Origin: a virus
Reading direction: 5' to 3' (one strand)
Length of the DNA stretch: 64,000 nucleotides
IMG/VR virus record: IMGVR_UViG_3300045921_000730
Location: 180,294-244,293 of that record
Part shown: positions 15,081 through 63,025 of the stretch, piece by piece
Layout of the letters: each line of letters starts with the position of its first letter
Numbering within the stretch: position 1 is the stretch's first letter
Notes under the pieces: generated by a model
The model's database searches: none
Told to the model about the DNA's origin: nothing
The model's input: the letters and a program-made list of their open reading frames with translations, nothing else
Position numbers and translations under genes: made by a program

Positions 15081-15284
15081 AAATCGAGCTGAGAAAACCA
15101 CATGATTTTTAGTCGCGTGGATGAATCAGCACATTGGTATCTGGTTGGTTTGTCACCATAAATAGTAACGTCTGGTTGTGGGACGCAATCGGACATTAAA
15201 CAAAAACCGAAGGAGGCGTCGATGCTGTTAGGTCAAGTCGATGAATTCGGAAACCATGAAGTTTTTAGCTTCGTGGTAGTTCAT
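15081..15284 (+). mobile_element. Element B: 204-bp TnpB mini-element with guide-RNA scaffold
   Basis: After TTAT (15077-15080) comes a left-end imperfect hairpin (CTGAgaaaaCCACATGA...TCGCGTGGatgaaTCAG), then CATAAATA (15157-15164). The 115-nt scaffold follows from GTCTGG at 15170, ending in the hairpin ACCATGAAG-TTTTTAG-CTTCGTGGT and GTAGTTCAT. The scaffold is homologous to the 3' end of tnpB1 but is one base longer, so its reading frame is broken while the hairpin pairing is kept. Nearly identical to element D. Together elements A, B and C fill the 14984-15424 interval, which holds no gene. Confidence 0.8.
15170..15284 (+). ncRNA. Candidate stand-alone omega RNA (element B)
   Basis: In known TnpB systems the 3' end of tnpB plus the right end is the guide-RNA scaffold and the adjacent flank is the guide. 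Here the scaffold follows CATAAATA by 6 nt, the usual late-promoter distance to a transcription start. The adjacent flank that would be the guide is TCAAACAATAAAACGAATTG (15285-15304). Transcription and use are inferred. Confidence 0.55.
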
Positions 15285-15318
15285 TCAAACAATAAAACGA
15301 ATTGAATAAGTATTCAAA

Positions 15319-15326
15319 GATAAATA
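15319..15326 (+). promoter_or_regulatory. Late promoter-like box
   Basis: GATAAATA (continuing AATA) upstream of element C and of the fibre at 15425. Confidence 0.45.
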
Positions 15327-15340
15327 AATAAATTGATTAT

Positions 15341-15390
15341 CGAAAATTAATTGAGAAAACCACGAAGTCTTTAGCTTCGTGGTAGTTCAT
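15341..15390 (+). mobile_element. Element C: 50-bp TnpB-type hairpin relic
   Basis: Preceded by TTAT (15337-15340). Left-end sequence is joined to a perfect 9-bp hairpin ACCACGAAG-TCTTTAG-CTTCGTGGT then AGTTCAT. Same build as element A. It lies in the 5' leader of the 15425 fibre gene. The downstream flank contains the palindrome TGGTATATACCA (15393-15404) before the RBS. Confidence 0.7.
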
Positions 15391-15424
15391 CCTGGTATAT
15401 ACCAAATTAAAAAGGAGACGCCAC

Positions 15425-18400
15425 ATGGCCACAAAAATTAGACTAAAACGAAGTGCTGTTCCCAATAATGTTCCCACGACAAGCCAACTTGACCTTGGTG
15501 AAATTGCTATCAACACTTATGATGGTAAACTTTATATTAAAAAAGACGATGGTTCTGAATCAATAGTGTTAGTTGGTCCACAAGCCGGTAACTCTGCTCC
15601 AACAAATCAAGTTGTTTATGGCACAGGGTTAAGTTTAACTAGTTCAGCAACGTTCACATATGATCCCACGACTGGAAATTTTACTGTTAATCCAGGAAGT
15701 GTAACTTCACCATCAAGCATTTCTTTGACTGCTGCAAGCGATTCGTCAATTGGTAACGGTGGCAGTATTGAATTGTTAGCTGGTAATGGTGGTTCAACAA
15801 GTGGTGATGGTGGTAACATTACTTTAAATGCGGGTGATGCTTCTATTGGCAACGGCGGCGATGTTTTTATTCTTGCTGGAACACCAACCAATGGTAATGG
15901 TGGTGATGTAACAATTACAGCGTCTGCTGGCTCCGGTTCTAACAACGAAGGTGGTGATGTAAATATCACATCCGGTAATTCTACAGGCTCTAGTGGTGCA
16001 GGAACAATTAATTTAACATCAGGATCCAACCCTGCAGGTACGGGCGTTGGAGGAAACATTGCTTTGACAGCCGGAGAAGGCGGTTCAGGCGGTGGCAATA
16101 TTACTTTAACAGCTGGCGACTCAAATAATTCGTCTGGCAATGCAGGCGACGTTAACATTATTGGCGGAAATGCTCTTCTTAACGGATCTGGAGGAAATGT
16201 TACATTTACAACTGGTGACTCTGCAACTGGTACAGCTGGCAATGCAATATTTAATATAGGTATTGGTAATGCAACACGCGGCACTTTTGATGTTGTACAT
16301 GGTAGCTCAAATAAATTTAGAGTAGCTGCCAACGGATATATCGGAATTAATCAAGACACACCAACAGAAGTTTTACATGTTGGTGGTAATATTAGATTAA
16401 CAGGAAGCATTAAATTTCCTGGCGGCGATATTACTGATAGTTCTCTCAATGGTCTGAGCGATGTAGTTATTTCTGGACCAACTAATGGTCAATTTTTGAA
16501 ATATAATGGAACAAACTGGGTAAATTCTGCTCTTGGTGTTGTTCTTGATGATATTAGTGATGTTGATATTGGTGTACCAACCAACGGTCAAGTGTTATAT
16601 AGATCAGGATCAAATTGGATTAATCAAACGCTTGTTATTGCTGACATTTCTGGTTTACAAACATCTCTTAATGGTAAGTTGAGCTTGTCTGGCGGCACAA
16701 TGACAGGTCCATTGATCCTTTCTGGTGCTCCTTCAGATCCAAACGAAGCAACTACAAAAACATATGTTGATAATGCTGACGCTGCTAAAGTCAACAAAGC
16801 TGGTGACTCAATGACAGGCCTTCTAACGTTGAGCGGAGATCCAACGGCACCGTTGCATGCAGCTACAAAACAATACGTCGACAATCTTGCAGGAGGGCTA
16901 GTACCACATGCAAGTGTAAAAGCAGCTACAACAGTAAACTTGTCATCTTTGTCAGGATTGTTGACGGTTGACGGATACACTCTATCTGCTGGTGATAGAG
17001 TATTAGTAAAAAACCAAACCACCGGAAGTGAAAATGGTATATATGTTGCTAGTGCCGGAAGTTGGTCTCGAGCAACTGACTTCGATGGAACACCTTCGGG
17101 TGAAGTTTCTCCGGGCGATTTTGTCTTTGTTGAAAATGGTACAACTAACGGTGGAACATCTTGGATTCTAATAACACCAAATCCAATTAACGTCGGAACT
17201 ACAACATTAACATTTACACAATTTAGTGGCGGTGCCGGCAGTAATCCTGGTGGTCTTGATACACAGGTCCAATTTAATGACGGCGGAACATTCGGTGGCG
17301 ATGCGGACTTTACATGGAATAAGACAACAAATACTTTGACAGCAACAAACATAACAACGTCTGGCACATTAGATGTAACACGTTATGTTGAAACAGGACC
17401 GATTGTTTCGATTTCGTCGGGGACATTAACCATCGATTTAGCGACCGGTACATTGTTTGAAGTAAGCTTAAATCAAAACATTTCAACTTTAACAATAAAC
17501 AACGCTGCTTCTTCAGGCAAGGTGTCGACATTTAGTTTAATGTTTGTTGGTGATGGTACTCCAAGAACGATCACGTGGCCAGCAAGCGTAAAGTGGCCAA
17601 ACGATGTTCCACCTACTTTATCCGCATCTAACGGAGCTGTTGACGTGTTCACGTTCTTTACACGTAATGGTGGTACAACTTGGTATGGTATTATTGCTGG
17701 ACAATTGTTCAATGACTCACAACCCATTGCTCCACCTGACTTAAGACTTGATCAAATATTGGCTGCTCAAAATCCAAACACAATAGACAATGGAAACAAC
17801 ACTCAAACGTGGAGATGGTCGCTTGGTGGTAGTAATAATGGTTTATCAATTAGAGAACATGCTGTATCCACATCTACTGGAACCTTATTCTCGATAGATT
17901 CATTAGCATCATCGACAGTTGGTATTTTTAATGCGCGTGCCCAAAACGGTCAAGGCGGTATTACAATTGATAATAACGGTTTTGTAACCGTCAATAGTGG
18001 TACAACAAACCCAACATTCACAATTGCAACTACGTCAGGATTTATAACAAATAGTCAGTTAAGATTTACTTCATCAGCACCATCACCACAAGTTACAACA
18101 GCAACGGGTACTAACTTAACAATTAATCCTGGCAATGCCACAGTTACGGGCACTGGACCATCATTAACATTACAGTCTGGTAACGGCTTAACAACTGGAG
18201 CAGGTGGTGCAATAAACATTACAGCAGGAAACGGTACAGGCACAAACCAAAATGGTGGTACCGTAACAATTAGTGGTGGTATACCAACAGGTACAGGCAC
18301 AAGTGAAATTCTTTTACGTACAAATAATACGACTCGTTTAACTGTTAACACCAGCGGTACAATTATTATTCCTGGAAATATGACCGTTGGTACAATCACT

Positions 18401-19009
18401 TCCGGCACTTGGAATGGTACAGCTGTTGGTACAGGATTTGGTGGTACTGGTTTAACATCTATTGGTTCAGCCAACCAAATACTTGGTGTTAATACAGGTG
18501 GCAGTGCTCTTGAATATAAAACTGTTACAGCTGGTACAGGTGTGATTGTAACACCATCAGCAAATACTATTACAATTAGTTTACCACAAGCAGTTAATAC
18601 AACGTCTAATGTTGAGATTGGGTCTTTGGGTGTTGGAACACCAGCTAGTGGTACTGCAGGTGAAATAAGAGCAACAAATAACATTACAGCTTATTACTCG
18701 TCGGATAAACGTCTGAAGGAAAACATTCAACCAATAGATAATGCTCTTCAAAAAGTTGGTAAAATTTCAGGTGTGATGTTTGACTGGAGCGATGACTATA
18801 TTCAAAAACATGGTGGTGAAGACGGTTATTTCATTCGTAAGCATGATGTTGGTGTTATTGCTCAAGAAGTTGAAGAAATTATGCCTGAAATTGTTGCCAC
18901 AAGAGAGGATGGCTATAAAGCATTGCGATATGAGCGTTTGGTACCGCTCCTAATAGAAGCAATAAAAGAATTAAAAGCAGAAATTGATCAATTAAAGAAA
19001 GGTAAGTAA
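15425..19009 (+). CDS. Tail fibre with C-terminal S74 intramolecular chaperone
   Basis: 1194 residues; RBS AAAGGAG. Mtd_N-like head (KIRLKRSAVPNNVPTTSQLDLGEIAINTYDGKLYIKKDDG), Gly-rich repeats ~105-280, two GGTMTG/GDSMTG-ATKxYVD modules, the GDRVLVKNQT/NGIYVASAGSWSRATDFDG module, and a WPASVKWPNDVPPT domain. The last ~105 residues are a Peptidase_S74 chaperone: YSSDKRLKENI...HDVGVIAQEVEEIMPEIV...YKALRYERLVPLLIEAIKELKAEI. This domain trimerises fibres and then cuts itself off with a Ser-Lys dyad, both visible in SSDKRLKEN. The mature fibre should therefore lack the tail end. Confidence 0.92.
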   Translation: MATKIRLKRSAVPNNVPTTSQLDLGEIAINTYDGKLYIKKDDGSESIVLVGPQAGNSAPTNQVVYGTGLSLTSSATFTYDPTTGNFTVNPGSVTSPSSISLTAASDSSIGNGGSIELLAGNGGSTSGDGGNITLNAGDASIGNGGDVFILAGTPTNGNGGDVTITASAGSGSNNEGGDVNITSGNSTGSSGAGTINLTSGSNPAGTGVGGNIALTAGEGGSGGGNITLTAGDSNNSSGNAGDVNIIGGNALLNGSGGNVTFTTGDSATGTAGNAIFNIGIGNATRGTFDVVHGSSNKFRVAANGYIGINQDTPTEVLHVGGNIRLTGSIKFPGGDITDSSLNGLSDVVISGPTNGQFLKYNGTNWVNSALGVVLDDISDVDIGVPTNGQVLYRSGSNWINQTLVIADISGLQTSLNGKLSLSGGTMTGPLILSGAPSDPNEATTKTYVDNADAAKVNKAGDSMTGLLTLSGDPTAPLHAATKQYVDNLAGGLVPHASVKAATTVNLSSLSGLLTVDGYTLSAGDRVLVKNQTTGSENGIYVASAGSWSRATDFDGTPSGEVSPGDFVFVENGTTNGGTSWILITPNPINVGTTTLTFTQFSGGAGSNPGGLDTQVQFNDGGTFGGDADFTWNKTTNTLTATNITTSGTLDVTRYVETGPIVSISSGTLTIDLATGTLFEVSLNQNISTLTINNAASSGKVSTFSLMFVGDGTPRTITWPASVKWPNDVPPTLSASNGAVDVFTFFTRNGGTTWYGIIAGQLFNDSQPIAPPDLRLDQILAAQNPNTIDNGNNTQTWRWSLGGSNNGLSIREHAVSTSTGTLFSIDSLASSTVGIFNARAQNGQGGITIDNNGFVTVNSGTTNPTFTIATTSGFITNSQLRFTSSAPSPQVTTATGTNLTINPGNATVTGTGPSLTLQSGNGLTTGAGGAINITAGNGTGTNQNGGTVTISGGIPTGTGTSEILLRTNNTTRLTVNTSGTIIIPGNMTVGTITSGTWNGTAVGTGFGGTGLTSIGSANQILGVNTGGSALEYKTVTAGTGVIVTPSANTITISLPQAVNTTSNVEIGSLGVGTPASGTAGEIRATNNITAYYSSDKRLKENIQPIDNALQKVGKISGVMFDWSDDYIQKHGGEDGYFIRKHDVGVIAQEVEEIMPEIVATREDGYKALRYERLVPLLIEAIKELKAEIDQLKKGK

Positions 19010-19012
19010 AAA

Positions 19013-19990: not shown

Positions 19991-20019
19991 TGTTGACAAA
20001 AACTACCACTTTGTATAAA

Positions 20020-20027
20020 AATAAATA
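20020..20027 (+). promoter_or_regulatory. Late promoter-like box, with possible TTGACA upstream
   Basis: AATAAATA 21 nt before the ATG at 20048. TTGACA (19993-19998) and TATAAA (20014-20019) with a short 15-bp spacer are also present, so a host-type promoter may overlap it. Confidence 0.4.
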
Positions 20028-20047
20028 TTTTTAACAAAGGAGTAAAT

Positions 20048-20374
20048 ATGATACCGACAACCATTACACTTAAAATTCACAATTATGATCCTGAATCAGA
20101 ATCATTAATTGTTTCATTTGCTTCCGATAAAACTAACTTTGGTCCTGACGAATACACACGCTTTGCTTATCAACCAACAGTTTATCAAGATCCATACAAT
20201 GTTAACTTTGTGTTGAAACATATTGCTCATTCAGGAATTGAAATAACAGAAGATATTGTTAAAAAAGAACAATATAAAGAAAATAAACAAATTACAGAAA
20301 AATATAAAGAACTTGTTGGGAAACAGTTTACTTTTTCTGTAAAAGAATTGTATAATTTTATTCATAATCAATAA
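20048..20374 (+). CDS. Small protein, paralogue of the 14083 gene
   Basis: 108 residues; AAAGGAG RBS. Same layout as the 14083 product (strand-rich first half, then KHIAHSGIEI and a charged helix KKEQYKENKQITEKYKELVG). As at 14083, it directly follows a glycine-rich fibre tip gene. Function unknown; possibly an assembly chaperone for its neighbour. Confidence 0.65.
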   Translation: MIPTTITLKIHNYDPESESLIVSFASDKTNFGPDEYTRFAYQPTVYQDPYNVNFVLKHIAHSGIEITEDIVKKEQYKENKQITEKYKELVGKQFTFSVKELYNFIHNQ

Positions 20375-20384
20375 TAAAAATAAT

Positions 20385-21589: not shown

Positions 21590-21604
21590 TTTAACCCAAA
21601 ATCT

Positions 21605-21725
21605 ATATAGGCTAAGAGCTGGCTGAATTTACGCCTACGGAGTGGCTGATGTTAATGCCACAACGAAGCAGGAATCAAGGTTGCCGTTGGGTGACTCCAC
21701 TTCTTTTTAAGAACACGTGGTGGTT
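21605..21725 (+). pseudogene. 3' remnant of a TnpB2-type gene and its right end
   Basis: About 105 coding bases match the end of tnpB2 (54640-54747): the remnant reads IYAYGVADVNATTKQESRLPLGDSTSF against IYACGVAEVDVTLKQESRLPLGDPTCS. A CGA-to-TGA change creates a stop within it. The right-end palindrome is degraded (CCACTTCTTTTTAAGAACACGTGG). Confidence 0.75.
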
Positions 21726-21740
21726 AAGATAATAATTTAT

Positions 21741-21944
21741 AAATCGAGCTGAGAAAATCCCACGATTTTTAGTCACGTGGATGAATCAGCACATTGGTAT
21801 CTGGTTCGTTTGTCACCATAAATAGTAATGTCTGGTTGTGGGACGCAATCGGACGTTAAACAAAAACCGAAGGAGGCGTCGATGCTGTTAGGTCGAGTCG
21901 ATGAGTTCGGAAACCATAAAGTTTTTAGCTTCGTGGTAGTTCAT
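21741..21944 (+). mobile_element. Element D: 204-bp TnpB mini-element with guide-RNA scaffold
   Basis: Near-identical to element B: TTAT (21737-21740), left-end hairpin, CATAAATA (21817-21824), scaffold from 21830, terminal hairpin and GTAGTTCAT. It is inserted between the tnpB2 remnant and the RCC1 fibre gene. The interval 21590-21982 thus holds only mobile-element sequence and a late promoter. Confidence 0.8.
21830..21944 (+). ncRNA. Candidate stand-alone omega RNA (element D)
   Basis: Same architecture as in element B. The flank that would act as guide, TTTAAACATAAATAGTATAT (21945-21964), contains the late promoter box of the next gene. Confidence 0.55.
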
Positions 21945-21950
21945 TTTAAA

Positions 21951-21958
21951 CATAAATA
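21951..21958 (+). promoter_or_regulatory. Late promoter-like box
   Basis: CATAAATA 25 nt upstream of the ATG at 21983. Confidence 0.5.
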
Positions 21959-45912: not shown

Positions 45913-47169
45913 ATGGCATTAAATAAAGGAACATATAAAAATACTGTCGTGGGTGGGCCGCCTCCTACCCCGGTTGGTACATTATTTATGTGGGGTCAAA
46001 ATACTTACGGAGAACTTGGTGACGGAACAACTACAAACAGATCATCGCCAGTCCAAATTGGTGCATCAAGCTGGATGTTTGTAGCTGTTGCAAACCAATA
46101 CACAACATATGCAATACGCAGCGACGGTCGTTTGTTTGCGTGGGGTCGTAACACTTCAGGTCAACTTGGTGACGGAACAACTATAGATAGATCATCTCCA
46201 GTCCAAATTGGTACGTCGAGTTGGATATTTGTTGGTGTACAGCCACAGAGTGTAATAGCTTTACGACAAGATAACAGACTTTTTGCATGGGGCGCCAATT
46301 CCGACGGTCAACTTGGTGACGGAACAACTATAAACAGATCATCGCCAGTTCAGATTGGAACATCGAGTTGGACAGCAATAAGTACTAGTCAAACCAGTCA
46401 CACTTTAGCAATAAGACAGGACGGTCTTTTGTTTGCTTGGGGAAGAAATGGCTTTGGTCAACTTGGTGACGGAACAACTATAGATAGATCATCTCCAGTT
46501 CAGATCGGAACAGCAAGTTGGATATTTGTTTATGCAAGCGACATCACTTGTTCTTTTGCAATAAGACAGGACGGTCGTTTGTTTGCATGGGGAAGAAACA
46601 GCTTGGGTCAACTTGGTGACGGAACAACTACAAACAGATCATCTCCAGTTCAGATCGGTTCATCAACCTGGTCAAGTGTGCTTGGGGGTGATAGTTCTCA
46701 TACCTTAGCAATAAGACAGGACGGTCGTTTGTTTGCTTGGGGAAGAAATGATCAAGGCCAACTTGGTGACGGAACAACTACAAACAGATCATCGCCGGTT
46801 CAGATCGGTTCGTTAAGCTGGTCTTCCATTTACATTGATGATCTCTCTTCTTTTTCTATTAGAAACGACGGATTATTGTTTGCTTGGGGAAGAAATAACA
46901 ACGGCCAACTCGGTGACGGAACAACTACAAACAGATCATCACCAGTTCAGATCGGTTCATCAACCTGGTCAAAAGTGTCGGTTGGTGGTAATACAGTTCA
47001 TGCTATACGAAGCGACGGATTGTTATTTGGATGGGGTAACAATTTTAGTGGGAAAATTGGCGACGGAACAACTACAAACAGATCATCACCCGTACAAATT
47101 GGCTCTCAAAGTTGGGTTAATCTTGCTTCTGGTATTGGGTTTTTCCACAAAGGAGCAATTCGAGCATAA
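45913..47169 (+). CDS. RCC1-repeat protein (single propeller)
   Basis: 418 residues almost entirely of about seven to eight RCC1 repeats (LFAWGRNTSGQLGDGTTIDRSSPVQIGTSSWIFV). Repeats are nearly identical at DNA level to each other and to parts of the 9971 gene. The N-terminal ~20 residues are a short linker and there is no glycine-rich tip. It follows a fibre gene by 10 nt, so it may cap the preceding fibre. Confidence 0.8.
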   Translation: MALNKGTYKNTVVGGPPPTPVGTLFMWGQNTYGELGDGTTTNRSSPVQIGASSWMFVAVANQYTTYAIRSDGRLFAWGRNTSGQLGDGTTIDRSSPVQIGTSSWIFVGVQPQSVIALRQDNRLFAWGANSDGQLGDGTTINRSSPVQIGTSSWTAISTSQTSHTLAIRQDGLLFAWGRNGFGQLGDGTTIDRSSPVQIGTASWIFVYASDITCSFAIRQDGRLFAWGRNSLGQLGDGTTTNRSSPVQIGSSTWSSVLGGDSSHTLAIRQDGRLFAWGRNDQGQLGDGTTTNRSSPVQIGSLSWSSIYIDDLSSFSIRNDGLLFAWGRNNNGQLGDGTTTNRSSPVQIGSSTWSKVSVGGNTVHAIRSDGLLFGWGNNFSGKIGDGTTTNRSSPVQIGSQSWVNLASGIGFFHKGAIRA

Positions 47170-51506: not shown

Positions 51507-51620
51507 ATGAACTACCGCGTAGCTAAAGACAACGCGGTTTCCGAACTCAACGACCCAGCCAACTTCACCGGCGCCTCCTTCGGTTTTTGTTTAGAGTCCG
51601 ACTGCGTTCCACAACCAGAC
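51507..51620 (-). ncRNA. Predicted omega RNA scaffold of tnpB1
   Basis: The last ~114 nt of tnpB1 and its right end, with hairpin ACCGCGTTG-TCTTTAG-CTACGCGGT and AGTTCAT. By analogy with IS200/IS605 TnpB this is the guide scaffold. The adjacent flank (guide) is ACCAAATACCACCTTTCCAC, antisense to codons of the bL33 5' half. Confidence 0.6.
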
Positions 51621-52732
51621 ATTAAATTCAAACCTTGACGAAGTGTGTTCTTAGCTGCATTGACATCTCTGTCATGTACTTCACCACAAACAGGGCATGT
51701 CCATTCTCTAATGGAAAGATTCATGTCTTGTATGATGTGGTTGCACGAAGAACAAGTCTTACTAGATGGAAACCATCTATCTATTTGAATTACTTGTCTA
51801 CCATGCCATGCTGCTTTGTACTTCAACATCGAAACTAAACTACCCCAGCTAACATCAGATATTGCTTGTGCTAGTTTGTGATTTTTAATCATGTTCTTAA
51901 CACTAAAGTCTTCCAAACAGATTACTTGGTTATCGTTAATCAATTTGGTCGTTACCTGATGAAGATAGTTGTTTCTTTGATCTACTACTTTTTGGTGTTG
52001 TCTTGCTAGTCTGTACCTAGCTTTTGTTCTTGATTTTGTGTCTTTCTTTTTCTTAGAGAGTTGACGTTGGAGGTACTTGATCTTCTTTAGATGCTTCTTG
52101 AGAAATCGTTCGTTCTTAATCTCTGTTCCATTTGAATCGACAAGAAGAGATTTGATTCCAAGGTCAACGCCGATGATTTCACCTGTGGATTCCTTTTGGT
52201 CGATCTCAAACTCACCCTGAATGGAGGCAAAATACTTACCTGAAGCATTCATTGAAATTGTTACAGAATTCGCTTTCACTAATCGACCAGTGAATTTGCC
52301 TTTGAACTTGAATGGAACTTTGAACTTAGGAATCTTTAGGGTTTTTGCATCCCAGTCAATGACGAAATGTTGAGGTACCTTAAATAATTGTCTGCTATTG
52401 TGTTTAGATTTGAACTTTGGGAATTTGGCAATTTTACGGAAGAAGCGATCATATGCTCCATCTAAATCTTTTAGTGCTGCTTGAATTGTCTGAGAATTGA
52501 TTTCCTTTAACCATTCAAATTCAGGATTTTTCTTCATCTCAGTGACTAGAGCAGAGCAAGCATTGTATCCGATCGACTTTTTGTTTTCTAGGTATTCGTT
52601 CTTACGGATCTCAAGAAACTTGTTGAAGACGAATCGACGAGCGCCAAAATGCTTAGCCAAGAGTTCTTTGTCAGACTCTCTTGGATAAATTTGAACTTTG
52701 ACGGACTTCTGAACTATCACTTGATTTAGCAT
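51512..52732 (-). CDS. tnpB: TnpB RNA-guided nuclease (TnpB1)
   Basis: 406 residues from the ATG at 52732 (longer in-frame starts exist but MLNQVIVQKSVKVQIYP is the normal TnpB beginning). RuvC residues are complete: D190 (IIGVDLGIKS), E274 (ICLEDFSV), D356 (HDRDVNAA), closely matching the spacing of ISDra2 TnpB (191/278/361). Zinc knuckle C327, C330, C346, C349. TnpB cuts DNA next to a short TAM under omega-RNA guidance. An exact late promoter TATAAATA precedes it on the minus strand. The catalytic set suggests an active nuclease, not a dead repressor. Confidence 0.93.
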   Translation of the reverse strand: MLNQVIVQKSVKVQIYPRESDKELLAKHFGARRFVFNKFLEIRKNEYLENKKSIGYNACSALVTEMKKNPEFEWLKEINSQTIQAALKDLDGAYDRFFRKIAKFPKFKSKHNSRQLFKVPQHFVIDWDAKTLKIPKFKVPFKFKGKFTGRLVKANSVTISMNASGKYFASIQGEFEIDQKESTGEIIGVDLGIKSLLVDSNGTEIKNERFLKKHLKKIKYLQRQLSKKKKDTKSRTKARYRLARQHQKVVDQRNNYLHQVTTKLINDNQVICLEDFSVKNMIKNHKLAQAISDVSWGSLVSMLKYKAAWHGRQVIQIDRWFPSSKTCSSCNHIIQDMNLSIREWTCPVCGEVHDRDVNAAKNTLRQGLNLMSGCGTQSDSKQKPKEAPVKLAGSLSSETALSLATR

Positions 52733-52761: not shown

Positions 52762-52837
52762 ACAAAATCTCCAAAATATAAGAAATTTTACAAAAAATTT
52801 TTCTATTGAAATGGAATTGGCTATAAGCAAAAATTAT

Positions 52838-53013
52838 CAGAATTGGGGCTGAGAAAACCACGTGATCATCAGCGATGAATCAGCCATAAATAATTTACAG
52901 TCTGGTTGTAGAACGCAGTCGGACACTAAACAAAAACCGAAGGAGGCGCTGGTGTTGTTAGCTGGGTCGATGAGTTCAGAAACCGCGTTGTCTTTAGCTA
53001 CGCGGTAGTTCAT
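52838..53013 (+). mobile_element. Element F: 176-bp TnpB mini-element inside the bL33 insertion
   Basis: TTAT (52834-52837), shortened left-end hairpin (CTGAGAAAACCACGTGA...TCAGC), CATAAATA (52885-52892), scaffold from GTCTGG (52900), terminal hairpin and GTAGTTCAT at 53013. The scaffold still reads as the end of TnpB1 ([16 protein letters not shown]...LSLATR). Confidence 0.8.
52900..53013 (+). ncRNA. Candidate stand-alone omega RNA (element F)
   Basis: 114-nt scaffold, 8 nt after CATAAATA. The flank that would be the guide is ACAACAACAACAAAAAATAA, the bL33 coding strand directly after the junction. Confidence 0.55.
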
Positions 53014-53565: not shown

Positions 53566-54747
53566 ATGATTAAAACGTTTGAGGTTCAATTATTACCAAC
53601 AGAAGACCAGCTGGTGCAATTAAAGCAGCACGCAGGTGCTGTTCGTTGGCTATGGAATCAAATGTTAGAAGCAAATATTCAGAAATATGAGCAAGAGAAA
53701 AAATTCATATTTCGCTTTGAAATGCAAAGGTTATTGCCTGAACTAAGGAAGCAGCATCTGTGGTTAACCGAAATAAACAGCCAATCTCTACACGAACAAT
53801 GCATTAATTTAAACAATGCACTGGTGCGAATATTTAAGAACAAGGCCGGATTTCCGCGTTTTAAGAGCAAACATGATGCTGCCGATTCATTCGCTGTGCC
53901 ACAATTTTTCAATATCTGTAATAGAAGCATTAAGTTACCTAAAATTGGCCGATTGAAATATGCAAAACAGAGATGTTTTGAAGGAAAAGCAAAGAGAATC
54001 GTTGTTAAACAAAGAGACGATAAGTGGTTTGCCCTGATTTCATGTGAATTACCTGATGTTCCTGTTCGATCCGTTGCTGAATCAGAAGTTGTTGGAATTG
54101 ATGTTGGAATTAAAGACTTTGCAATATTAAGCGATGGCACCAAGATATCTAATCCTAAACACCTTGAAAAGAGTGAAAAACTGTTAAGAACTAGACAGAA
54201 AGCACTCTCCAGAAAGGTTAAAGGATCACAAAACTGCGCAAAAGCTCGTAATTCAGTGGCTAAATTACATAGACATATAACAAATCAAAGAAAAGACTTC
54301 CAATGGAAACTGGTTGCTTCGATAGCCAAGAAATGGCAAGTTGTGGCATTGGAAGACCTGAATATTCAAGGAATGATGAAAAACCGGAGGTTATCAAAAG
54401 CAATTGGCTCAGCTGGATGGAGTTCATTTAAAAACAAACTGAACCATAAACTAGCTGAAAAAGGTGGATATGTGGTTGAAATTGGACGGTTTGCACCTAG
54501 TTCAAAAACATGTTCATCGTGCGGACTCATAAATGACAATCTAACTCTCAATGATAGAGAGTGGGATTGTGAATGTGGAGTGCATCACGATAGAGATGTT
54601 AATGCTGCTGTGAATATCAGGAATATAGGAATAAAAGAAATATATAGGCTGGGAACTGGCCGAATTTACGCCTGTGGAGTGGCTGAAGTAGATGTCACAT
54701 TGAAGCAGGAATCACGGTTGCCGTTGGGTGACCCCACTTGTTCTTAA
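53566..54747 (+). CDS. tnpB: TnpB RNA-guided nuclease (TnpB2)
   Basis: 393 residues, only distantly related to TnpB1. RuvC residues are present: D179 (VVGIDVGIKDF), E263 (VALEDLNIQ), D344 (HHDRDVNAA). The zinc knuckle has C316, C319 but then C335-x-C337, one residue shorter than the usual C-x2-C. The 3' end carries the same LPLGDPTCS tail as the remnant at 21605. No tnpA. The right-end palindrome overlaps the stop. Confidence 0.92.
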   Translation: MIKTFEVQLLPTEDQLVQLKQHAGAVRWLWNQMLEANIQKYEQEKKFIFRFEMQRLLPELRKQHLWLTEINSQSLHEQCINLNNALVRIFKNKAGFPRFKSKHDAADSFAVPQFFNICNRSIKLPKIGRLKYAKQRCFEGKAKRIVVKQRDDKWFALISCELPDVPVRSVAESEVVGIDVGIKDFAILSDGTKISNPKHLEKSEKLLRTRQKALSRKVKGSQNCAKARNSVAKLHRHITNQRKDFQWKLVASIAKKWQVVALEDLNIQGMMKNRRLSKAIGSAGWSSFKNKLNHKLAEKGGYVVEIGRFAPSSKTCSSCGLINDNLTLNDREWDCECGVHHDRDVNAAVNIRNIGIKEIYRLGTGRIYACGVAEVDVTLKQESRLPLGDPTCS

Positions 54748-54764
54748 GAACAAGTGGTAGTTCA
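54734..54764 (+). other. Right end of the TnpB2 element
   Basis: Perfect 24-bp palindrome CCACTTGTTCTTAAGAACAAGTGG followed by TAGTTCA. It is the expected 3' end of the omega RNA; sequence beyond it would be the guide. Confidence 0.65.
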
Positions 54765-54802
54765 GGAGCGAGGGGTCGCAAGTTCAAATCTTGCATCACC
54801 GA
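54765..54802 (+). tRNA. 3' half of a tRNA gene at the TnpB2 boundary
   Basis: GCGAG (anticodon stem 3' strand), variable GGGTC, T-arm GCAAG-TTCAAAT-CTTGC, acceptor strand ATCACCG and discriminator A. The element end lies in the anticodon loop. The GGA before the stem and the GGGTC variable region look like tRNA-Pro, but the anticodon is lost. No matching 5' half (CGGTGAT...) is found upstream of the element. Confidence 0.6.
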
Positions 54803-55492: not shown

Positions 55493-56509
55493 ATGAAATA
55501 TCGACCAATTAAACACAGACATAACGATTATAGCAAACATATGTCTCATTTGGATTTTAAATATGATAGTGAGTATTATCCAGAAGATGCAGATCTGCCA
55601 GATCCTCAAATCGACCCGTTCATACCTGGTGCAAAAGTACCAATTGATAAAGTTGGTGTATCTGGTGTAGATTTGCCTGTTCATTTTATTCGTCGTGATG
55701 GTACAATTGAAAAACTACATGCAAGAGTATCCTTATATGGTTCATTAGATAATCCGAATGCAAAAGGTCTTAACCTTTCACGGTTTCCAATCGTGATGCA
55801 TGAAGCAATTGCTAATCATTTATCAATTGATGGTCTAAAGTCCGTGTTAGATATTCTGCAAAAGAAACAAGGATCTCATAGCGTTTATTGTAAAATGAAG
55901 TTTAAATATCCTTGGACCCAACAGGCACTAAGAACGAGAAAAGAACTACCTGATGATGCACCAGACGATCAAGTATTCAAAATCGTTGAAGGAATTAAGC
56001 TTTCATACGAAAAGATGGAAGGTTTTATTTTTTATGATTGTGTATTAGAAGGACAAAAGCATGGGCACAATTATAAGTTTTATTTGACTGTTGATTATGT
56101 TTATTCATCAACGTGTCCATGTTCATTTGAACTTGCACAAGACGCAATGGTAAAACGCGGTAAGGCTGCAAATGGACATTCGCAACGAAGCATTGGTAAA
56201 ATCACTGTGGAATTCGATCCTTCGAATCCGGTATTTATCGAAGATATTGTTGAAATGGCTCGTCGTCAAGTACCAACTGAAGTTGTAATCATTTGTAAGC
56301 GAAGAGATGAACAAGCGTTTGCAGAATTAAATGGTTCAAATTTATTGTTTACTGAGGATGCTATTCGTTTATTTTATGAAGGATTAGACGAAATGTTTCT
56401 GGCAGGTAAAATTTTTGATTTTAGCGTCGTGACAGATCACATAGAAAGTTTGCATCCGTGGAGTGCAACCGCTGTTATCTCAAAAGGGATTCCGGGCGGT
56501 CTAAGATAA
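55493..56509 (+). CDS. folE2: GTP cyclohydrolase FolE2 (type IB)
   Basis: 338 residues. Converts GTP to 7,8-dihydroneopterin triphosphate, the first step to folate and to 7-deazaguanines (preQ0). Family signatures: VGVSGVDLPVHFIRRDG, KGLNLSRF at 91-98, CPCS at 208-211 (metal and catalytic Cys), HSQRS at 229-233. The N-terminal ~45 residues are an extension. In phages FolE enzymes often feed DNA modification. No QueC, QueE or DNA transglycosylase is seen here. Confidence 0.9.
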   Translation: MKYRPIKHRHNDYSKHMSHLDFKYDSEYYPEDADLPDPQIDPFIPGAKVPIDKVGVSGVDLPVHFIRRDGTIEKLHARVSLYGSLDNPNAKGLNLSRFPIVMHEAIANHLSIDGLKSVLDILQKKQGSHSVYCKMKFKYPWTQQALRTRKELPDDAPDDQVFKIVEGIKLSYEKMEGFIFYDCVLEGQKHGHNYKFYLTVDYVYSSTCPCSFELAQDAMVKRGKAANGHSQRSIGKITVEFDPSNPVFIEDIVEMARRQVPTEVVIICKRRDEQAFAELNGSNLLFTEDAIRLFYEGLDEMFLAGKIFDFSVVTDHIESLHPWSATAVISKGIPGGLR

Positions 56510-56514
56510 TCTCA

Positions 56515-58089
56515 GTGGACGATATTATCAAACAAATAAAACAAATAGTTGTGCTGCATGATGGAAGAGTGTCTCCAAAAGCAGCACAACTTCTTTTAAC
56601 GAAGAATAAACAACTATATGATTTTTTGTTTGAAAAAACAAACTTTCTCGATGAAAAAGCATCGATAACACATCGGATTTATTGTTTAGAACATAACATT
56701 ACATCACCTCCTATCTGTAAGGTATGTGGTAAAAAGACCAAGTTTCAAACATCAAAAAAACAATATAGTGATTTTTGTTCGGTTCAGTGTGCAACACGAA
56801 GCAATCAAACAATCAAAAAACGAAAACGAACAAACATTAAAAAGTATGGTAATTGTGTTCCAGCAAATGTTTTGCACAGCACGAAACAAACAATGCTTAA
56901 AAAGTATGGTGTAGAAAAACCGCTGCAAGCTATAAAGTTTCAGCAAAAAAGAAAAAATACACTAATACAAAAATATGGTACTGATAATACAAACCTTGTT
57001 CCTGAAATTCTAGAAAAAAGAAAAAATACCAGCATAAAACGTTATGGCACAGAGCATACATCACAACGATTAATCGCACATGCGATTGAATATCTAAATA
57101 ATCGTGAATGGCTTACAAAAGAACATATTACAAACAAAAAATCATGTGTTGCAATAGCAAACGAATTAAACGTTGGTGTAACAACTGTAACAAATGCGAT
57201 TAATAGATTGCAGTTATTACAAACATCCAATCGCTCTTCATATGAACACGAACTCAGCGATTTTTTGCAATCATACAATATAGAACACACAATAAACGAT
57301 AGAACTATTATCTTTCCCAAAGAACTTGATATATATTGTCAATCTTATAATCTAGCAATAGAGATATGCGGACACTATTGGCACAGTGAACTCAACGGAA
57401 AAGATAAAAACTATCATTTAAATAAAACGCTACTTTGCAATGAAAAACAAATACGACTAATACAAATATTTGAACATGAATGGGTGAATAAAAACGACAT
57501 TGTGAAACAAAGACTGTTGCATATATTCAAAAAAACAGAAACAAAAATACACGGACGCAAGTGTATTGTAAGACCGATTGAGTCGAGTGAAGCAAAAAAG
57601 TTCATCAACAAGAATCATATCCAAGGATATGCACCAGCATCTCATTATATTGGTTTGTTTTATCAACAAACGTTGGTCGGATGTGCTACTTTTGGTAAAG
57701 CAAGATATTCAAACCATCAATGGGAATTAATTAGATTGTGTTTTTCACAACCTGTGAGCGGTGGCAGCGGAAAACTTTTTTCGTTTTTTGTGAAACAATA
57801 TGCTCCACACACCATTGTCTCTTATAGTGATAAGAGATGGAATACAGGTAACGTTTATCAGCAACTTGGGTTCACACATCAGGGAACGTCTCGACCTGGA
57901 TATTTTTATTTTCATGTTTATAAACCACTTTTGTTACATTCACGGATCAATTTTCAAAAACATAAATTGAAATTGTTATTTGAAAATTACAATGATCAAT
58001 TAACAGAATGGGAGAACATGAAAAATAACGGTTATGATAGAATATGGGATTGTGGGAATGATGTATGGGTATGGACTAATCCGTGTTGA
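56515..58089 (+). CDS. Vsr-like (possibly homing) endonuclease with C-terminal accessory domain
   Basis: 524 residues from GTG 56515, just after folE2 (an ATG at 56458 overlaps it; no clear RBS for either). A Cys cluster (CKVCGKKTKFQTSKKQYSDFCSVQCA), then several KKYGxxxxxQ DNA-binding repeats typical of phage homing endonucleases, an HTH-like CVAIANELNVGVTTVTNAINRL, and a nuclease core ELDIYCQSYNLAIEICGHYWHSE...IRLIQIFEHEWVNK of the Vsr/EDxHD fold. The C-terminal ~150 residues (IVRPIESSEAKKFINKNHIQGYAP...GCATFGKARY) resemble an acyltransferase-like domain found in such proteins. Confidence 0.8.
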   Translation: MDDIIKQIKQIVVLHDGRVSPKAAQLLLTKNKQLYDFLFEKTNFLDEKASITHRIYCLEHNITSPPICKVCGKKTKFQTSKKQYSDFCSVQCATRSNQTIKKRKRTNIKKYGNCVPANVLHSTKQTMLKKYGVEKPLQAIKFQQKRKNTLIQKYGTDNTNLVPEILEKRKNTSIKRYGTEHTSQRLIAHAIEYLNNREWLTKEHITNKKSCVAIANELNVGVTTVTNAINRLQLLQTSNRSSYEHELSDFLQSYNIEHTINDRTIIFPKELDIYCQSYNLAIEICGHYWHSELNGKDKNYHLNKTLLCNEKQIRLIQIFEHEWVNKNDIVKQRLLHIFKKTETKIHGRKCIVRPIESSEAKKFINKNHIQGYAPASHYIGLFYQQTLVGCATFGKARYSNHQWELIRLCFSQPVSGGSGKLFSFFVKQYAPHTIVSYSDKRWNTGNVYQQLGFTHQGTSRPGYFYFHVYKPLLLHSRINFQKHKLKLLFENYNDQLTEWENMKNNGYDRIWDCGNDVWVWTNPC

Positions 58090-58142
58090 TTAATAACAAC
58101 ATTTACAATATAATTTAAATTTAACAAACAAAGGTTAATAAT

Positions 58143-58529
58143 ATGTTTACAATCAAAATTAAAAAAACAGAAACTGATTCTACTCGTTTTCAATTACGAA
58201 TTCCAACGCTTGGCGAATGGCTAAAAAATGTTGAAGAAATGTATAATGACAGCACCAAATATGAAGGTTATGTTGTGTACTTAGATTTTTCGGTTACCGA
58301 TATTGTTAATCCAGCTGCACTACGTCTTGCGCAATATGTAAACATTCAACATCCACTAACAGTGTATATTACAAACGAAGAAACTAACGAAACGACAGTT
58401 TTGAAAAATGTTCACCTTCGTGACGTTATTGTCTACAATAAAGAATTATATGACCAAAACTCCAAATCAATTACTATGGAGCTTGAGTTTCAAACATTAA
58501 CAAAATTATTGGAAGTGAAAGGGGGATAA
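58143..58529 (+). CDS. Unknown protein
   Basis: 128 residues; AAAGG RBS. FQLRIPTLGEWLKNVEEMYNDSTKYEGYVVYLDFSVTDIVNPAALRLAQYVNIQHPLTVYITNEETNETTVLKNVHLRDVIVYNKEL is a beta-rich, soluble sequence. Not recognised. Followed after 1 nt by a small membrane protein. Confidence 0.65.
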   Translation: MFTIKIKKTETDSTRFQLRIPTLGEWLKNVEEMYNDSTKYEGYVVYLDFSVTDIVNPAALRLAQYVNIQHPLTVYITNEETNETTVLKNVHLRDVIVYNKELYDQNSKSITMELEFQTLTKLLEVKGG

Positions 58530-58530
58530 A

Positions 58531-58716
58531 ATGACGTTTAATATTAATCAAACGGATCGTTTTATTCGATTATTAATTTCAATTATTGTAGGTTTGGGTA
58601 TAATTATTGGACAATTTCCTGTAGAATGGATTTTACTTTCGTTTGTATTATTGATAACAGCAGCATTCAAGTTTTGTCCAGCATACAAGATTGTAGATCT
58701 GTTAAAGAACCGATAA
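58531..58716 (+). CDS. Small DUF2892-type membrane protein
   Basis: 61 residues with two membrane segments ([31 protein letters not shown]). The N-terminal N-x-x-x-x-D-R-x-I-R and C-terminal CPAYKIV are DUF2892 marks. Inner membrane; function unknown. Confidence 0.75.
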
Positions 58717-58726
58717 GAGGAATATT

Positions 58727-59797
58727 ATGAGAATAATTGAGGATACCAAGCTAGATTTTAGAGATGTATTAATTGTACCAAAACGTTCCGAAAAAAATAG
58801 TCGTAAAGAAGTAGATCTGACAAGACAGTTTACTTTCAAATATAGCAAGCATCAATGGAAAGGAATTCCAATCATTGCTGCAAACATGGATACGGTTGGT
58901 ACATTTGAAATGTTATATTCATTAACATCTTACAATATGCTAACTTGTATTCACAAACATTATTCTTTTGAAAGATGGGAACAAACAATATCTGAATTAA
59001 AAAAATTAATGTTGCGAGATATATATTATCAACATATTGTGTATAGTCTTGGAACAAGTGAAGATGAGTTTGAAAAACTAATTCAAATAAACGACATCCT
59101 TTTTGATGTTCGTACCATTTGCATCGACATTGCAAACGGATATAGTCAACACATTTTACATTTTGTCGAAAAAGTAAGAACAAAATTTCCCGAAAAAATT
59201 ATCATTGCTGGAAACGTCGTAACGCCTGAAATGACAGAAGCGTTGATTTTGGCTGGTGCTGATGTCGTAAAGGTCGGTATTGGTGGTGGGTCAGTGTGTA
59301 CAACAAGAATTAAAACTGGCGTTGGATACCCACAACTTTCTGCTGTAATTGAATGCGGTGATGCAGCACACGGACTGAAAGGACATATCATTAGCGATGG
59401 TGGATGTACAAATTCTGGTGATATCGCAAAAGCGTTTGGTGGTGGTGCTGATTTTGTAATGTTGGGCGGAATGCTAGCAGGACATGATGAAGCAGGTGAA
59501 GAAAATATCGTGTATGATGGTGTAGAAATAAAAGGCGTTCGCTTCTATGGGATGAGTTCCAACGCAGCCATGGAAAAACATTATGGGGGAGTAGCAGATT
59601 ATCGTGCTGCAGAAGGGAAAGAAGTCCTGGTTCCATACAAAGGAAGCGTCAAAAATACATTACAAGATATCTTGGGTGGCGTAAGAAGCGCTTGTACATA
59701 CATTGGTGCGTCTTCAATTAAAGAAGTACCAAAAAGAACAACGTTTGTAAAAGTGCACCAACAATACAATCCAGTTTATGATAAATATATTAAATAA
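58727..59797 (+). CDS. guaC: GMP reductase
   Basis: 356 residues; E. coli GuaC is 347. Converts GMP to IMP with NADPH. Full signatures: [48 protein letters not shown] with catalytic Cys191, [57 protein letters not shown]. In a phage it would shift guanine nucleotides toward IMP and adenine nucleotides. FolE2 nearby draws on GTP. Confidence 0.95.
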
Positions 59798-59810
59798 ACG
59801 GAGAAAACAG

Positions 59811-60188
59811 ATGGATTTATTAAAAACGTTGATAAAAGAATTTGAAGACCAATCTGAAAAAAATAGTTTATTAGATACTGATCAAATTTACAAACTAATT
59901 AAATTCGATGACGAAAAAGAAACTGAGCAACAAAATCGTCAGGGTATAATTCGTCATGTACCAAATGCACAATTAGTTTATAAAAGAAAAACAGAAGATG
60001 GTACATACGAAGAATTATGGATTTATAATATCAATAATATTAAAACACAAAAAAATGTTCGTGAAGCAATCCTTGCTGGTACCGATATTGTTCCGAATCA
60101 AACGACAAGTGAAGACAACAAACAATATGCTGAAACATGGACTTCCGGAAACATTGAGCTATTAAAAATTAACGGTCTACCCAACTGA
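59811..60188 (+). CDS. Small conserved-looking unknown protein
   Basis: 125 residues from ATG 59811 with RBS CGGAGAA (an in-frame ATG at 59778 lies in guaC). Charged and Gln-rich, with AQLVYKRKTEDGTYEELWIYNI in the middle and NKQYAETWTSGNIELLKINGLPN at the end. Unknown; likely a structural-adjacent conserved phage protein. Confidence 0.6.
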   Translation: MDLLKTLIKEFEDQSEKNSLLDTDQIYKLIKFDDEKETEQQNRQGIIRHVPNAQLVYKRKTEDGTYEELWIYNINNIKTQKNVREAILAGTDIVPNQTTSEDNKQYAETWTSGNIELLKINGLPN

Positions 60189-60200
60189 AAGGGAGCACAG

Positions 60201-60455
60201 GTGAATAAGTTAGAAACATACATACAACAATATTTGCAACAGCTTTTAATTGAAGCAGCCTCGTATAGAAAAAAAGCGAACCAAAGTAAGACTCAAACAA
60301 CAAAAAATTATTATATGAAAAAATTAAACAAGCTCACACCTCAAATTCAACGATTGGTTTTACAGTTACAAACAATTCAACCAAGTACTTCGACACAATC
60401 AACAAACGAACATTCAACAAATGAAACAAACGCAACAACAGATCTCATGGCCTGA
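60201..60455 (+). CDS. Small helical protein
   Basis: 84 residues from GTG 60201 with RBS GGGAG. Mostly a coiled-coil-like helix (YIQQYLQQLLIEAASYRKKANQSKTQTTKNYYMKKLNKLTPQIQRLVLQLQTI) plus a Thr/Asn tail. Overlaps the next gene by 35 nt. Unknown. Confidence 0.55.
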   Translation: MNKLETYIQQYLQQLLIEAASYRKKANQSKTQTTKNYYMKKLNKLTPQIQRLVLQLQTIQPSTSTQSTNEHSTNETNATTDLMA

Positions 60456-60846
60456 ACTAATAATTACGGCCGAAGGACTAAAAGAACAATTTACAGAAAT
60501 TGTGATTAAAACTCTAAAACAAGCATTTATTGAAAATGTTTATGATATAGTTTGGTCAAATTTTTATAATAATCATGAAGACATAACGACAGAAAAAATT
60601 GACATAAAAGTAGAAGAACTTATACGAAACAATAAAGCACCATTAATAAGCGAATATCTTTGGAGGACTCCAGAAAATCAGATAGAAGTTGTATTGAACA
60701 AAGAAAAAATCAATGATGATGTAATATGGGAAGTGATGGAAATTATTTCTAATAATTTAGAAAAGTTATCAAACAATAACTTTGTTCCTCTCGGAAAACC
60801 GCTCTCATTTACTTCACATGAACTAGCTCACCTTTTTCGCCAATAG
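60421..60846 (+). CDS. Unknown protein, convergent with 60809
   Basis: 141 residues (MKQTQQQISWPELIITAEGLKEQFTEIVIKTLKQAF...NNHEDITTEKIDIKVEELIRNNKAPLISEYLWRTPENQIEVVLNKE). Acidic and helical. The last 38 nt overlap the end of the minus-strand gene. Not recognised. Confidence 0.55.
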   Translation: MKQTQQQISWPELIITAEGLKEQFTEIVIKTLKQAFIENVYDIVWSNFYNNHEDITTEKIDIKVEELIRNNKAPLISEYLWRTPENQIEVVLNKEKINDDVIWEVMEIISNNLEKLSNNNFVPLGKPLSFTSHELAHLFRQ

Positions 60847-61612
60847 GTTTTCTTGCTTCTCTTAGAATAATTTGCAAATACCAAATAATATCAAAGATAT
60901 TAGGAACAATTCTCTTTTTTTCTTCGCCATAATATGGTGTAGAAAACCGTTCAATTAAAGTTCTAATTTGCTCGTCTTTTTCTTTTTCGTACCAAAACAA
61001 TTTAATAATTTCAAACATTTCTTGTTTTTGTCTATCAAGTACACCGAAATATCCCGTCTCTTCTATACCAAACGTAAAGATATTTTCTGCAGGTGAATTT
61101 TTTTCACGAATAATGTAAAAAATATAATTTTCCTCTGTTAATTTTTTTGCTTCTAATAATTCTATCGGTTTATTTCCTAACCAATGATTCCAGCTAATCC
61201 ATTTTGAATAGTACATATCGGGTCTTGATGGAATATCTGGTGGTCTTTTTCCGTCATGACAAAATTGTTTCCAGTCTTCATATGTTTTTAATTGCTGCTT
61301 GTGCACAAAAGCGATTGCTTCTTCGTATGGACGATATGTTTTTAATTCACCAAATTTATTTTCTGTTCCTAAAAAGTCATTCCATGTTGTCCATTCTTTG
61401 TACACTCTTGCTGGGAAACGAGGAATATTTCTTGGTCTATTAATTTTCCACCACTCTTCATATTTGTTAACAGACGTCAACAACTCATCACGAACAATTT
61501 TTTGAGCCTCCAAAAATGGAAGAAAGTTCTTTTTCTTTCTTCCACGTTTCTTTGCGGCTTCTTTTTTTGCTCGATGTTCAGCAAGTTTTTCTTCCAATGT
61601 TTTTTTCGTCAT
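60809..61612 (-). CDS. INT_rpt-type repeat protein
   Basis: 267 residues. A basic N-terminal helix (EEKLAEHRAKKEAAKKRGRKKK) is followed by three copies of a ~50-residue unit resembling the phage-integrase repeat (YEEWWKINRPRNIPRFPARVYKEWTTWNDFLG; YEDWKQFCHDGKRPPDIPSRPDMYYSKWISWNHWLG). The C-terminal ~100 residues are not recognised. Such repeats are thought to bind DNA and occur in phage proteins without an integrase domain. Confidence 0.65.
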   Translation of the reverse strand: MTKKTLEEKLAEHRAKKEAAKKRGRKKKNFLPFLEAQKIVRDELLTSVNKYEEWWKINRPRNIPRFPARVYKEWTTWNDFLGTENKFGELKTYRPYEEAIAFVHKQQLKTYEDWKQFCHDGKRPPDIPSRPDMYYSKWISWNHWLGNKPIELLEAKKLTEENYIFYIIREKNSPAENIFTFGIEETGYFGVLDRQKQEMFEIIKLFWYEKEKDEQIRTLIERFSTPYYGEEKKRIVPNIFDIIWYLQIILREARKPIGEKGELVHVK

Positions 61613-61702
61613 ATTTTAATACCCTAAAAAATAAAAAAATATATCATATAAATGAGATATATACATTATATTTACAACAACAAAAAACAAAGATTCCGGT
61701 AC

Positions 61703-62137
61703 ATGAAAAAGATAAAACCCCCCGAACTGATTGTAGAACCACATCCTAAAGAATACAGAGGATATCCTTTCATTACATTGATAATGTATAGAAAGCATCA
61801 TATTCTTACAATTATTGATAACAGTGATCAGCAAAACATATATGGTTATGTTCTTGATTACTGTAATGCAGAAAATATTGATGAAGAAATATTGATATTG
61901 ACAGCAGCTGAATGGTTTGAGACCAACAAAACAAAATATCCGTTATCAATTGAATTTTCAAAAAGAGGATTAACAAAAAACTTCAGTAAAATCTACAAAA
62001 CGTTCAATATTGAATATGTATCAAGAGTGATTGGACCGCTTCCTCATTTTCCCATGGGAACATCTGCAATAAAATCAATAAAAAGACGAAGAAAAAAGCA
62101 GATACAACCAACAATAGAAATTATCAAAAAGTCTTAA
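61703..62137 (+). CDS. Conserved-looking unknown protein
   Basis: 144 residues from ATG 61703 (ATG 61652 is also possible; neither has a good RBS). MKKIKPPELIVEPHPKEYRGYPFITLIMYRKHHILTIIDNSDQQNIYGYVLDYCNAENIDEEILILTAAEWFE, then a basic C-terminus (KRRRKKQIQPTIEIIKKS). I recall similar short hypotheticals in T4-like phages. Function unknown. Confidence 0.55.
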   Translation: MKKIKPPELIVEPHPKEYRGYPFITLIMYRKHHILTIIDNSDQQNIYGYVLDYCNAENIDEEILILTAAEWFETNKTKYPLSIEFSKRGLTKNFSKIYKTFNIEYVSRVIGPLPHFPMGTSAIKSIKRRRKKQIQPTIEIIKKS

Positions 62138-62166
62138 AAGTTCACAAAAACAAAATTGGCAAGTGT

Positions 62167-62517
62167 TTAAAATCTTGACAAATGTTTAATCATTTTAAAC
62201 TTTTCTTTGTAAGAAACACTTTCTTGTTGTACCTTTTCCCCATCATATGCATACTTTAATCCATCTTCTGTCAATTCACCGTTTTCATCAATCAGTGCAT
62301 GGTCAATCATTACTTGTTTGCCAGAATCAGTAATTGTTGCACCTTTATTTTCATCATATGTTATTAGTCCAAGGTCAACTAAAATATCTCTTGCTGCAAC
62401 AATGTTAACATTGCCTGAAATTCTTTCACCAGCAACAACAGGCGTTTCACTTGCAACAATTGTTGTCATTACTTTTTTCTGATGGTCTGTCAATCTTACA
62501 GTCGGTAAAACGCTCAT
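62167..62517 (-). CDS. Winged-helix-like conserved phage protein
   Basis: 116 residues. MSVLPTVRLTDHQKKVMTTIVASETPVVAGERISGNVNIVAARDILVDLGLITYDENKGATITDSGKQVMIDHALIDENGELTEDG fits a winged helix: helix, turn, recognition helix (VAARDILVDLGLI), then a wing (ITYDENKGATIT). Conserved hypothetical in T4-like phages. DNA binding likely. Three nt upstream lies the 62521 gene on the same strand. Confidence 0.65.
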   Translation of the reverse strand: MSVLPTVRLTDHQKKVMTTIVASETPVVAGERISGNVNIVAARDILVDLGLITYDENKGATITDSGKQVMIDHALIDENGELTEDGLKYAYDGEKVQQESVSYKEKFKMIKHLSRF

Positions 62518-62520
62518 AAG

Positions 62521-62796
62521 TTACTCCATATCTCCTGCTCTATCTCCACTCTTTGTCATATTGAAAAACATGTTTGATACAACATAATCATAATATTTTT
62601 TGTCAGCAAACGTTTTACCTCTATTCCATTGTAAATCAGTACCATCATCATGAATATGATCATGTGGTTTACCGGGCTTTTCTTTACTTTTTACAGAATG
62701 TATTTTTTTAACAAGCTCGTTGTTTCTTTCAGTTTTTGATCTTGTCATCTTTGCTTTTTCTGTAATTATTTCCAAAAATTCTTTCAACAACACCAC
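62521..62796 (-). CDS. Small basic protein downstream of mini-element G
   Basis: 91 residues from GTG 62796 with GAAGGA upstream on the minus strand. EKAKMTRSKTERNNELVKKIHSVKSKEKPGKPHDHIHDDGTDLQWNRGKTFADKKYYDYVVSNMFF is charged and His-rich. Unknown. Mini-element G sits directly upstream, reading into it. Confidence 0.6.
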   Translation of the reverse strand: MVLLKEFLEIITEKAKMTRSKTERNNELVKKIHSVKSKEKPGKPHDHIHDDGTDLQWNRGKTFADKKYYDYVVSNMFFNMTKSGDRAGDME

Positions 62797-62820
62797 GACA
62801 TAAATCCTTCTTTTGATAAT

Positions 62821-62934
62821 ATGAACTACCGCGTAGCTAAAGACGACGCGGTTTCCGAACTCATCGACCCAGCTAACATCACCGGCGCCTCCTTCGGTTT
62901 TTGTTTAGAGTCCGACTGCGTTCCACAACCAGAC
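62821..62934 (-). ncRNA. Candidate stand-alone omega RNA (element G)
   Basis: Scaffold 4 nt after CATAAATA. The flank that would be the guide is ATTATCAAAAGAAGGATTTA (minus strand, 62820-62801), covering the RBS of the 62796 gene. Confidence 0.55.
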
Positions 62935-63025
62935 ATTTTATTTATGACTACAAATTAATTAGATATCAATAGGCCGATTCATCCATGTGATTGAAGATCA
63001 CGTGGTTTTCTCAGCCCTGAAGATG
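62821..63025 (-). mobile_element. Element G: 205-bp TnpB mini-element
   Basis: On the minus strand: TTAT (63029-63026), left-end hairpin CTGAgaaaaCCACGTGAT...ATCACATGGatgaaTCGG, CATAAATA (62946-62939), then the 114-nt scaffold to 62821 ending in hairpin ACCGCGTCG-TCTTTAG-CTACGCGGT and AGTTCAT. Closer to tnpB1 and F than to B and D. Confidence 0.8.

Follow-up and report, generated by a model that had tools for sequence, protein, structure and literature searches.

Candidate stand-alone TnpB guide-RNA genes behind predicted late promoters in a T4-like phage

Four short elements without any nuclease gene, here called mini-elements m1 to m4, lie in the final 64 kb of the 244-kb virus record IMGVR_UViG_3300045921_000730, each carrying what is predicted to be the guide RNA of a TnpB nuclease. 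Positions below are those of this 64-kb stretch, the window, except where marked "genome", which refers to the whole 244-kb record, itself possibly incomplete. The phage is T4-like, as judged from homologues of gp32, UvsX, UvsY, UvsW, gp44 and gp62 and from a gp55 homologue (7.6e-30), and the record holds seven tnpB genes. One of these, tnpB1 (51512..52732, minus strand), encodes a 406-amino-acid ISDra2-TnpB-like protein, the presumed partner of all mini-elements, which aligns with ISDra2 TnpB (8h1j/8bf8; about 1e-68) and has an intact RuvC D/E/D triad. Its own predicted guide-RNA scaffold (51507..51620, minus; 120.5 bits) overlaps the end of the reading frame, with the guide running from 51506 downward.

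The mini-elements follow a common order: a TTAT (usually TTTAT) target, 7–10 nt, the left hairpin GCTGAGAAAACC, a spacer, CATAAATA, 4–7 nt, and GTCTGG with the remainder of the scaffold, closed by the right end GGTAGTTCAT, which terminates in TTCAT in nearly all copies. Mini-element m1 (15081..15284, plus; 115.2 bits), which has all of these parts, follows TTAT at 15077-15080, bears its NATAAATA box at 15157..15164, 5 nt ahead of the scaffold (15170..15284), and has a guide beginning at 15285. In m2 (21741..21944, plus; 116.1 bits; target TTTAT at 21736-21740), the box (21817..21824) is likewise 5 nt ahead of the scaffold (21830..21944), and the guide, TTTAAACATAAATAGTATAT, includes the NATAAATA box of the next gene. 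Mini-element m3 (52838..53013, plus; 111.5 bits; target TTAT at 52834-52837) stands head-to-head with tnpB1 and has an internal deletion that spares its box (52885..52892), 7 nt ahead of the scaffold (52900..53013). The fourth, m4 (62821..63017, minus; 123.2 bits; target TTTAT at 63022-63018), has its box at 62939..62946, 4 nt ahead of the scaffold (62821..62934), and the guide ATTATCAAAAGAAGGATTTA at 62820-62801. A sequence-only reading had reported four copies without a nuclease gene, each sharing a right-end scaffold with the 3′ end of tnpB1. All four exist as described, with about 115 nt common to each and with the boundaries of m1 to m3 exact, but the end given for m4, 63025, was 8 nt too long and the total was too low.

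Across the record we found 12 mini-elements, of which 11 are structurally intact and one is decayed; the right end of tnpB1 also matches. With the scaffold model, 11 copies score 109–124 bits and the decayed one, at genome 168463, scores 55 bits. Over ~115 nt, identity to the 3′ end of tnpB1 is 92–97% for m3 and m4 and about 80% for m1 and m2. The left target is TTAT in all 11 readable copies, the ends are palindromic, and the box is replaced by the variant TATAAATG in one copy (genome 38568). Subterminal hairpins, a fixed short 5′ target and the absence of target duplication place the elements with IS200/IS605. A TnpA Y1 transposase (PF01797) was not found in the 244-kb record, and the mini-elements are therefore non-autonomous derivatives at most, which would need outside help to move. 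PATEs and MITE-like non-autonomous derivatives of IS605 are short elements consisting of ends only, lacking tnpA and tnpB and obeying the same target rule; the mini-elements differ from these in having, in addition, a full guide-RNA scaffold and a predicted phage late promoter, and in that some relatives elsewhere have no recognisable left end.

The ~115-nt body is, by its predicted RNA structure, a TnpB guide-RNA scaffold. A pattern scan returned 34 viral stretches and a further 24 from genome contigs of bacteria or archaea; these include chance matches, and a good number of the genuine ones overlap the 3′ end of a tnpB gene. In 35 homologues, four helices with 33 pairs were recovered, with 95.7% of cells paired, a covariation score of 0.599 (0.19 in shuffles, at most 0.10 in slid controls), and 255 cells changed on both sides, where shuffles gave 75 and slid controls no more than 47. 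Part of helix 1 was fixed by the scan pattern, which left its covarying columns free. Helices 1–3 lie outside the transposon-end hairpin and are informative, since a transposase recognising that hairpin should, judging from the family, have no need of them. The covariation thus backs the earlier assignment of the right end as an omega RNA-type scaffold, a structured RNA that overlaps both the tnpB 3′ end and the right end, and the mini-elements probably encode real guide RNAs. No family in Rfam matches the scaffold, and the covariance model now allows guide genes to be found with no nuclease nearby. A 42-codon open frame in the body was also considered as a small peptide and rejected, given a one-base insertion in several bodies, the missing start codon in some, and the covarying RNA pairs. 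GenBank phages gave no significant match to the elements, only 36-nt chance matches, and related T4-like contigs, selected through UvsX, lacked the scaffold.

The outermost pair of the scaffold involves the first G of GTCTGG (GC in 29, CG in 3, AU in 1), so the 5′ end of the RNA is predicted independently of any promoter. In T4, late boxes are 8 bp long and begin at −13, roughly one helical turn ahead of the start (PMC2988020), and late promoters of cyanophages read NATAAATA (PMC2984593). The CATAAATA boxes of m1 to m4 end 5, 5, 7 and 4 nt before GTCTGG, within the 4–8 nt claimed from the letters, and in the family of this record the end of NATAAATA is 4–7 nt from the first paired base of the scaffold. 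A box so placed would start the RNA at the first base of the scaffold or within 2 bases of it. The same motif is found at most 60 nt upstream of 16 of 89 phage genes, mostly at 28–44 nt, as against 3 on the opposite strand. With the TATAAATA/NATAAATA motif, its spacing to the scaffold and a gp55 homologue in the phage, the box is a predicted T4-type late promoter standing where such a promoter would set the start, as had been proposed. In tnpB1, as also noted earlier, TTTGAATTTAAT stands at the corresponding place, and an exact TATAAATA is found at 52760-52753 (minus), ahead of the start codon (ATG, 52732), a location that explains its absence before the tnpB1 scaffold.

NATAAATA stands some 25–45 nt before the start of nearly every tnpB gene in the record, and therefore the box of the mini-elements is no special invention. 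The tnpB gene at genome 40992 has both NATAAATA upstream and a matching left end, and the mini-elements would arise most simply by a deletion bringing a tnpB-type promoter up against the scaffold.

Since the mini-elements of the 244-kb record share descent, they were counted once, and the independent test of the box came from other contigs. The sequence-only reading had staked itself on the presence of the box in related mini-elements. Among 16 stand-alone scaffolds from other contigs, four (L042, L043, L110, L111) have it at the same spacing (4–6 nt), and the other 12 have no box at that place. The expected number was 0.06 (P = 3.7e-7) and none of 16 tnpB-linked scaffolds was boxed; the recurrence of the box at this spacing is therefore beyond chance. 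The DNA upstream of the four boxed copies is unrelated, with no meaningful similarity, and the phages of L043 and L111 have a gp55 gene. None of the four has a recognisable left end, while their scaffolds are intact. Such copies should not be moved by TnpA, which would leave homing by cutting as the mechanism.

These observations bear on the view that the mini-elements are plain non-autonomous transposon relics of the MITE/PATE kind, in which scaffold and box are passengers from a deleted tnpB, TnpA acts in trans and there is no guide function. Several copies are 94–97% alike, and recent spread would thus account for much of the conservation; movement depends on outside help, as no TnpA is encoded in the record; and the same phage also has single-palindrome elements without a scaffold (15003-15052, 15341-15390 and genome 73391). 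The first two of these, each 50 bp long, flank m1, follow TTTAT/TTAT and end in TTCAT without scaffold or box, and are bare mobile ends without guide RNA. However, 11 of 12 copies retain an intact scaffold structure, box and scaffold vary less among copies than the spacer between, and the stand-alone copies that lack a left end elsewhere keep an intact scaffold with the box at the same spacing. We consider relics an unlikely explanation, though one that deserves to be kept in mind. A further element at genome 73361-73432 (L036) is a chimera whose left and right ends belong to two different tnpB types, again without scaffold or box.

The L110 element lies between gp21 and scaffold gene 22 of another T4-like phage, where its flanks, when joined, read TTAT followed by AAATATATTAAACAGGAG...ATG. 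Of 57 relatives, 55 have a NATAAATA box ahead of gene 22, and the element therefore splits a conserved gene-22 late promoter and puts its own box in its place. In one relative (L208), the first 12 guide bases of L110 occur exactly after TTAT. This substitution would also be expected if the elements served neighbouring phage genes as mobile late promoters or 5′ leaders, with the scaffold incidental, and decayed remnants that retain the box and first scaffold bases just upstream of a gene fit as well. One of these (GATAAATAAACAAGTCTGGTTGTGG, genome 153540-153643, L039) is possibly an element end reused as a promoter. Yet a promoter would have no need of compensatory changes across the whole scaffold, and the gene downstream of m2 retains a box of its own, so that we regard this explanation as quite improbable.

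No two copies share the flank that follows TTCAT, the first 16 nt of which are found nowhere else in the sequence examined; each element would thus make a different guide, which is assigned by its position directly 3′ of the right end. A filled site normally reads TTCAT, not TTTAT, beside the guide, which would protect the element's own site. Among the record's seven tnpB genes, high-scoring scaffolds of this kind are confined to tnpB1; with one such gene for 12 elements, it is natural to suppose that a single nuclease serves many guides. TnpB1 is therefore likely to use the mini-element guides in trans. These RNAs might instead serve regulation, in the manner of TldR, rather than cutting; phage-borne, RNA-guided TnpB derivatives that regulate transcription are known (PMC13418256). 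TnpB1, by contrast, retains the three RuvC residues in its alignment with ISDra2 TnpB, and the guides copy the elements' own flanks. Regulation thus appears the least probable of the explanations considered here.

Taken together, scaffold structure, box spacing and its recurrence, target motif, guides, gp55 and the RuvC triad lead us to hypothesize, with a probability of about 0.64, that the mini-elements are non-autonomous IS200/IS605-type elements cut down to single late guide-RNA genes, used in trans by TnpB1. The T4-type late promoter (NATAAATA) would mark the 5′ end of the scaffold, and the RNA would extend at its 3′ end into 16–20 nt of adjoining phage DNA, which would act as the guide. 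In the late stage of infection, RNA polymerase with gp55 would produce one guide RNA from each element. TnpB1, which has the same scaffold in its own copy, would take up these RNAs in trans and cleave TTTAT/TTAT plus guide in DNA that lacks the element, be it an excision product or a co-infecting relative. Recombination with a filled copy would in turn bring the element back or spread it. Homing into rival phages, as the sequence-only reading envisaged, is plausible on this basis. The overall interpretation given there is supported in part, by the scaffold, the position of the late box, gp55, the independent boxed scaffolds and the single tnpB gene with this scaffold, and calls for amendment as regards the ordinary nature of the box and the sigma70-type promoters of a second family described below.

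Several observations weigh against this hypothesis. In e55 (genome 55439-55656, L020), the right end reads TTTAT, which restores the full transposon-associated motif (TAM) beside its own guide; this predicted self-target would be cut if TnpB1 were always active, and so argues against constant activity. Within the single family of this record, the box could be inherited rather than selected, and 12 of the 16 stand-alone scaffolds elsewhere do without it at that place. In several contigs that have a stand-alone guide, no tnpB is seen apart from the scaffold itself, although these may be fragments. The search for a close relative with an exact empty site yielded none; for the ThyX neighbour of L108, relatives came no closer than 61%, save copies with the same element, and showed no empty site.

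The hypothesized system resembles ISDra2 TnpB and its right-end element RNA (reRNA), in which the scaffold spans the tnpB 3′ end and the right end, the guide is the flank, and the target motif equals the left flank (PMC8612924), and the protein is ISDra2-like; it differs in that most guides here would be encoded in elements of their own, which lack tnpB and have a promoter at the first base of the scaffold. It also recalls the homing endonuclease genes annotated in T4 (mobB, mobC, I-TevII), as selfish cutting of the element-less allele would spread the element at co-infection. In contrast to these, the mini-elements have no protein, and specificity would reside in the RNA, with the nuclease supplied elsewhere. 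More tentatively, and with somewhat less than even confidence, we suggest that T4-like phages carry protein-less homing elements of ~120–200 bp, composed of a late promoter and one TnpB guide RNA, some without a left end, which lie in conserved late-gene control sites and spread by TnpB supplied in trans. The literature searched, with partial coverage, contained no description of stand-alone guides in phages under late promoters. If correct, a T4-like phage runs a system of many guides and one nuclease under its own late programme, and very small protein-free homing elements serve as a means of phage competition during co-infection.

A second stand-alone family is related to tnpB2 (53566..54747, plus), whose right-end scaffold is different from that of tnpB1. 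One copy (21604..21728, plus) lies immediately to the left of m2 and is 85% identical to the tnpB2 right end; others are at genome 40352-40490 and 35690-35826 (L019). These two have sigma70-type consensus promoters (TTGACA-17-TATTAT/TATAAT) and no late box, so the same phage may make one guide set early and another late. With the pattern used, the tnpB2-type scaffold was not found in viral contigs. An apparent tRNA 3′ half directly follows tnpB2 (54748-54802) and the tnpB2-type scaffold at genome 40352-40490, its 5′ half not being nearby, and the guides of both thus read tRNA sequence.

Elsewhere in the window, a phage gene of RCC1 repeats, usually of eukaryotic type, occupies 45913-47169, and an RCC1-like gene is also found near the L042 element. 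Genes for a FolE2-like GTP cyclohydrolase, a Mom-like modification domain and IMP dehydrogenase are grouped at 55493-59797 and form a possible DNA base-modification set.
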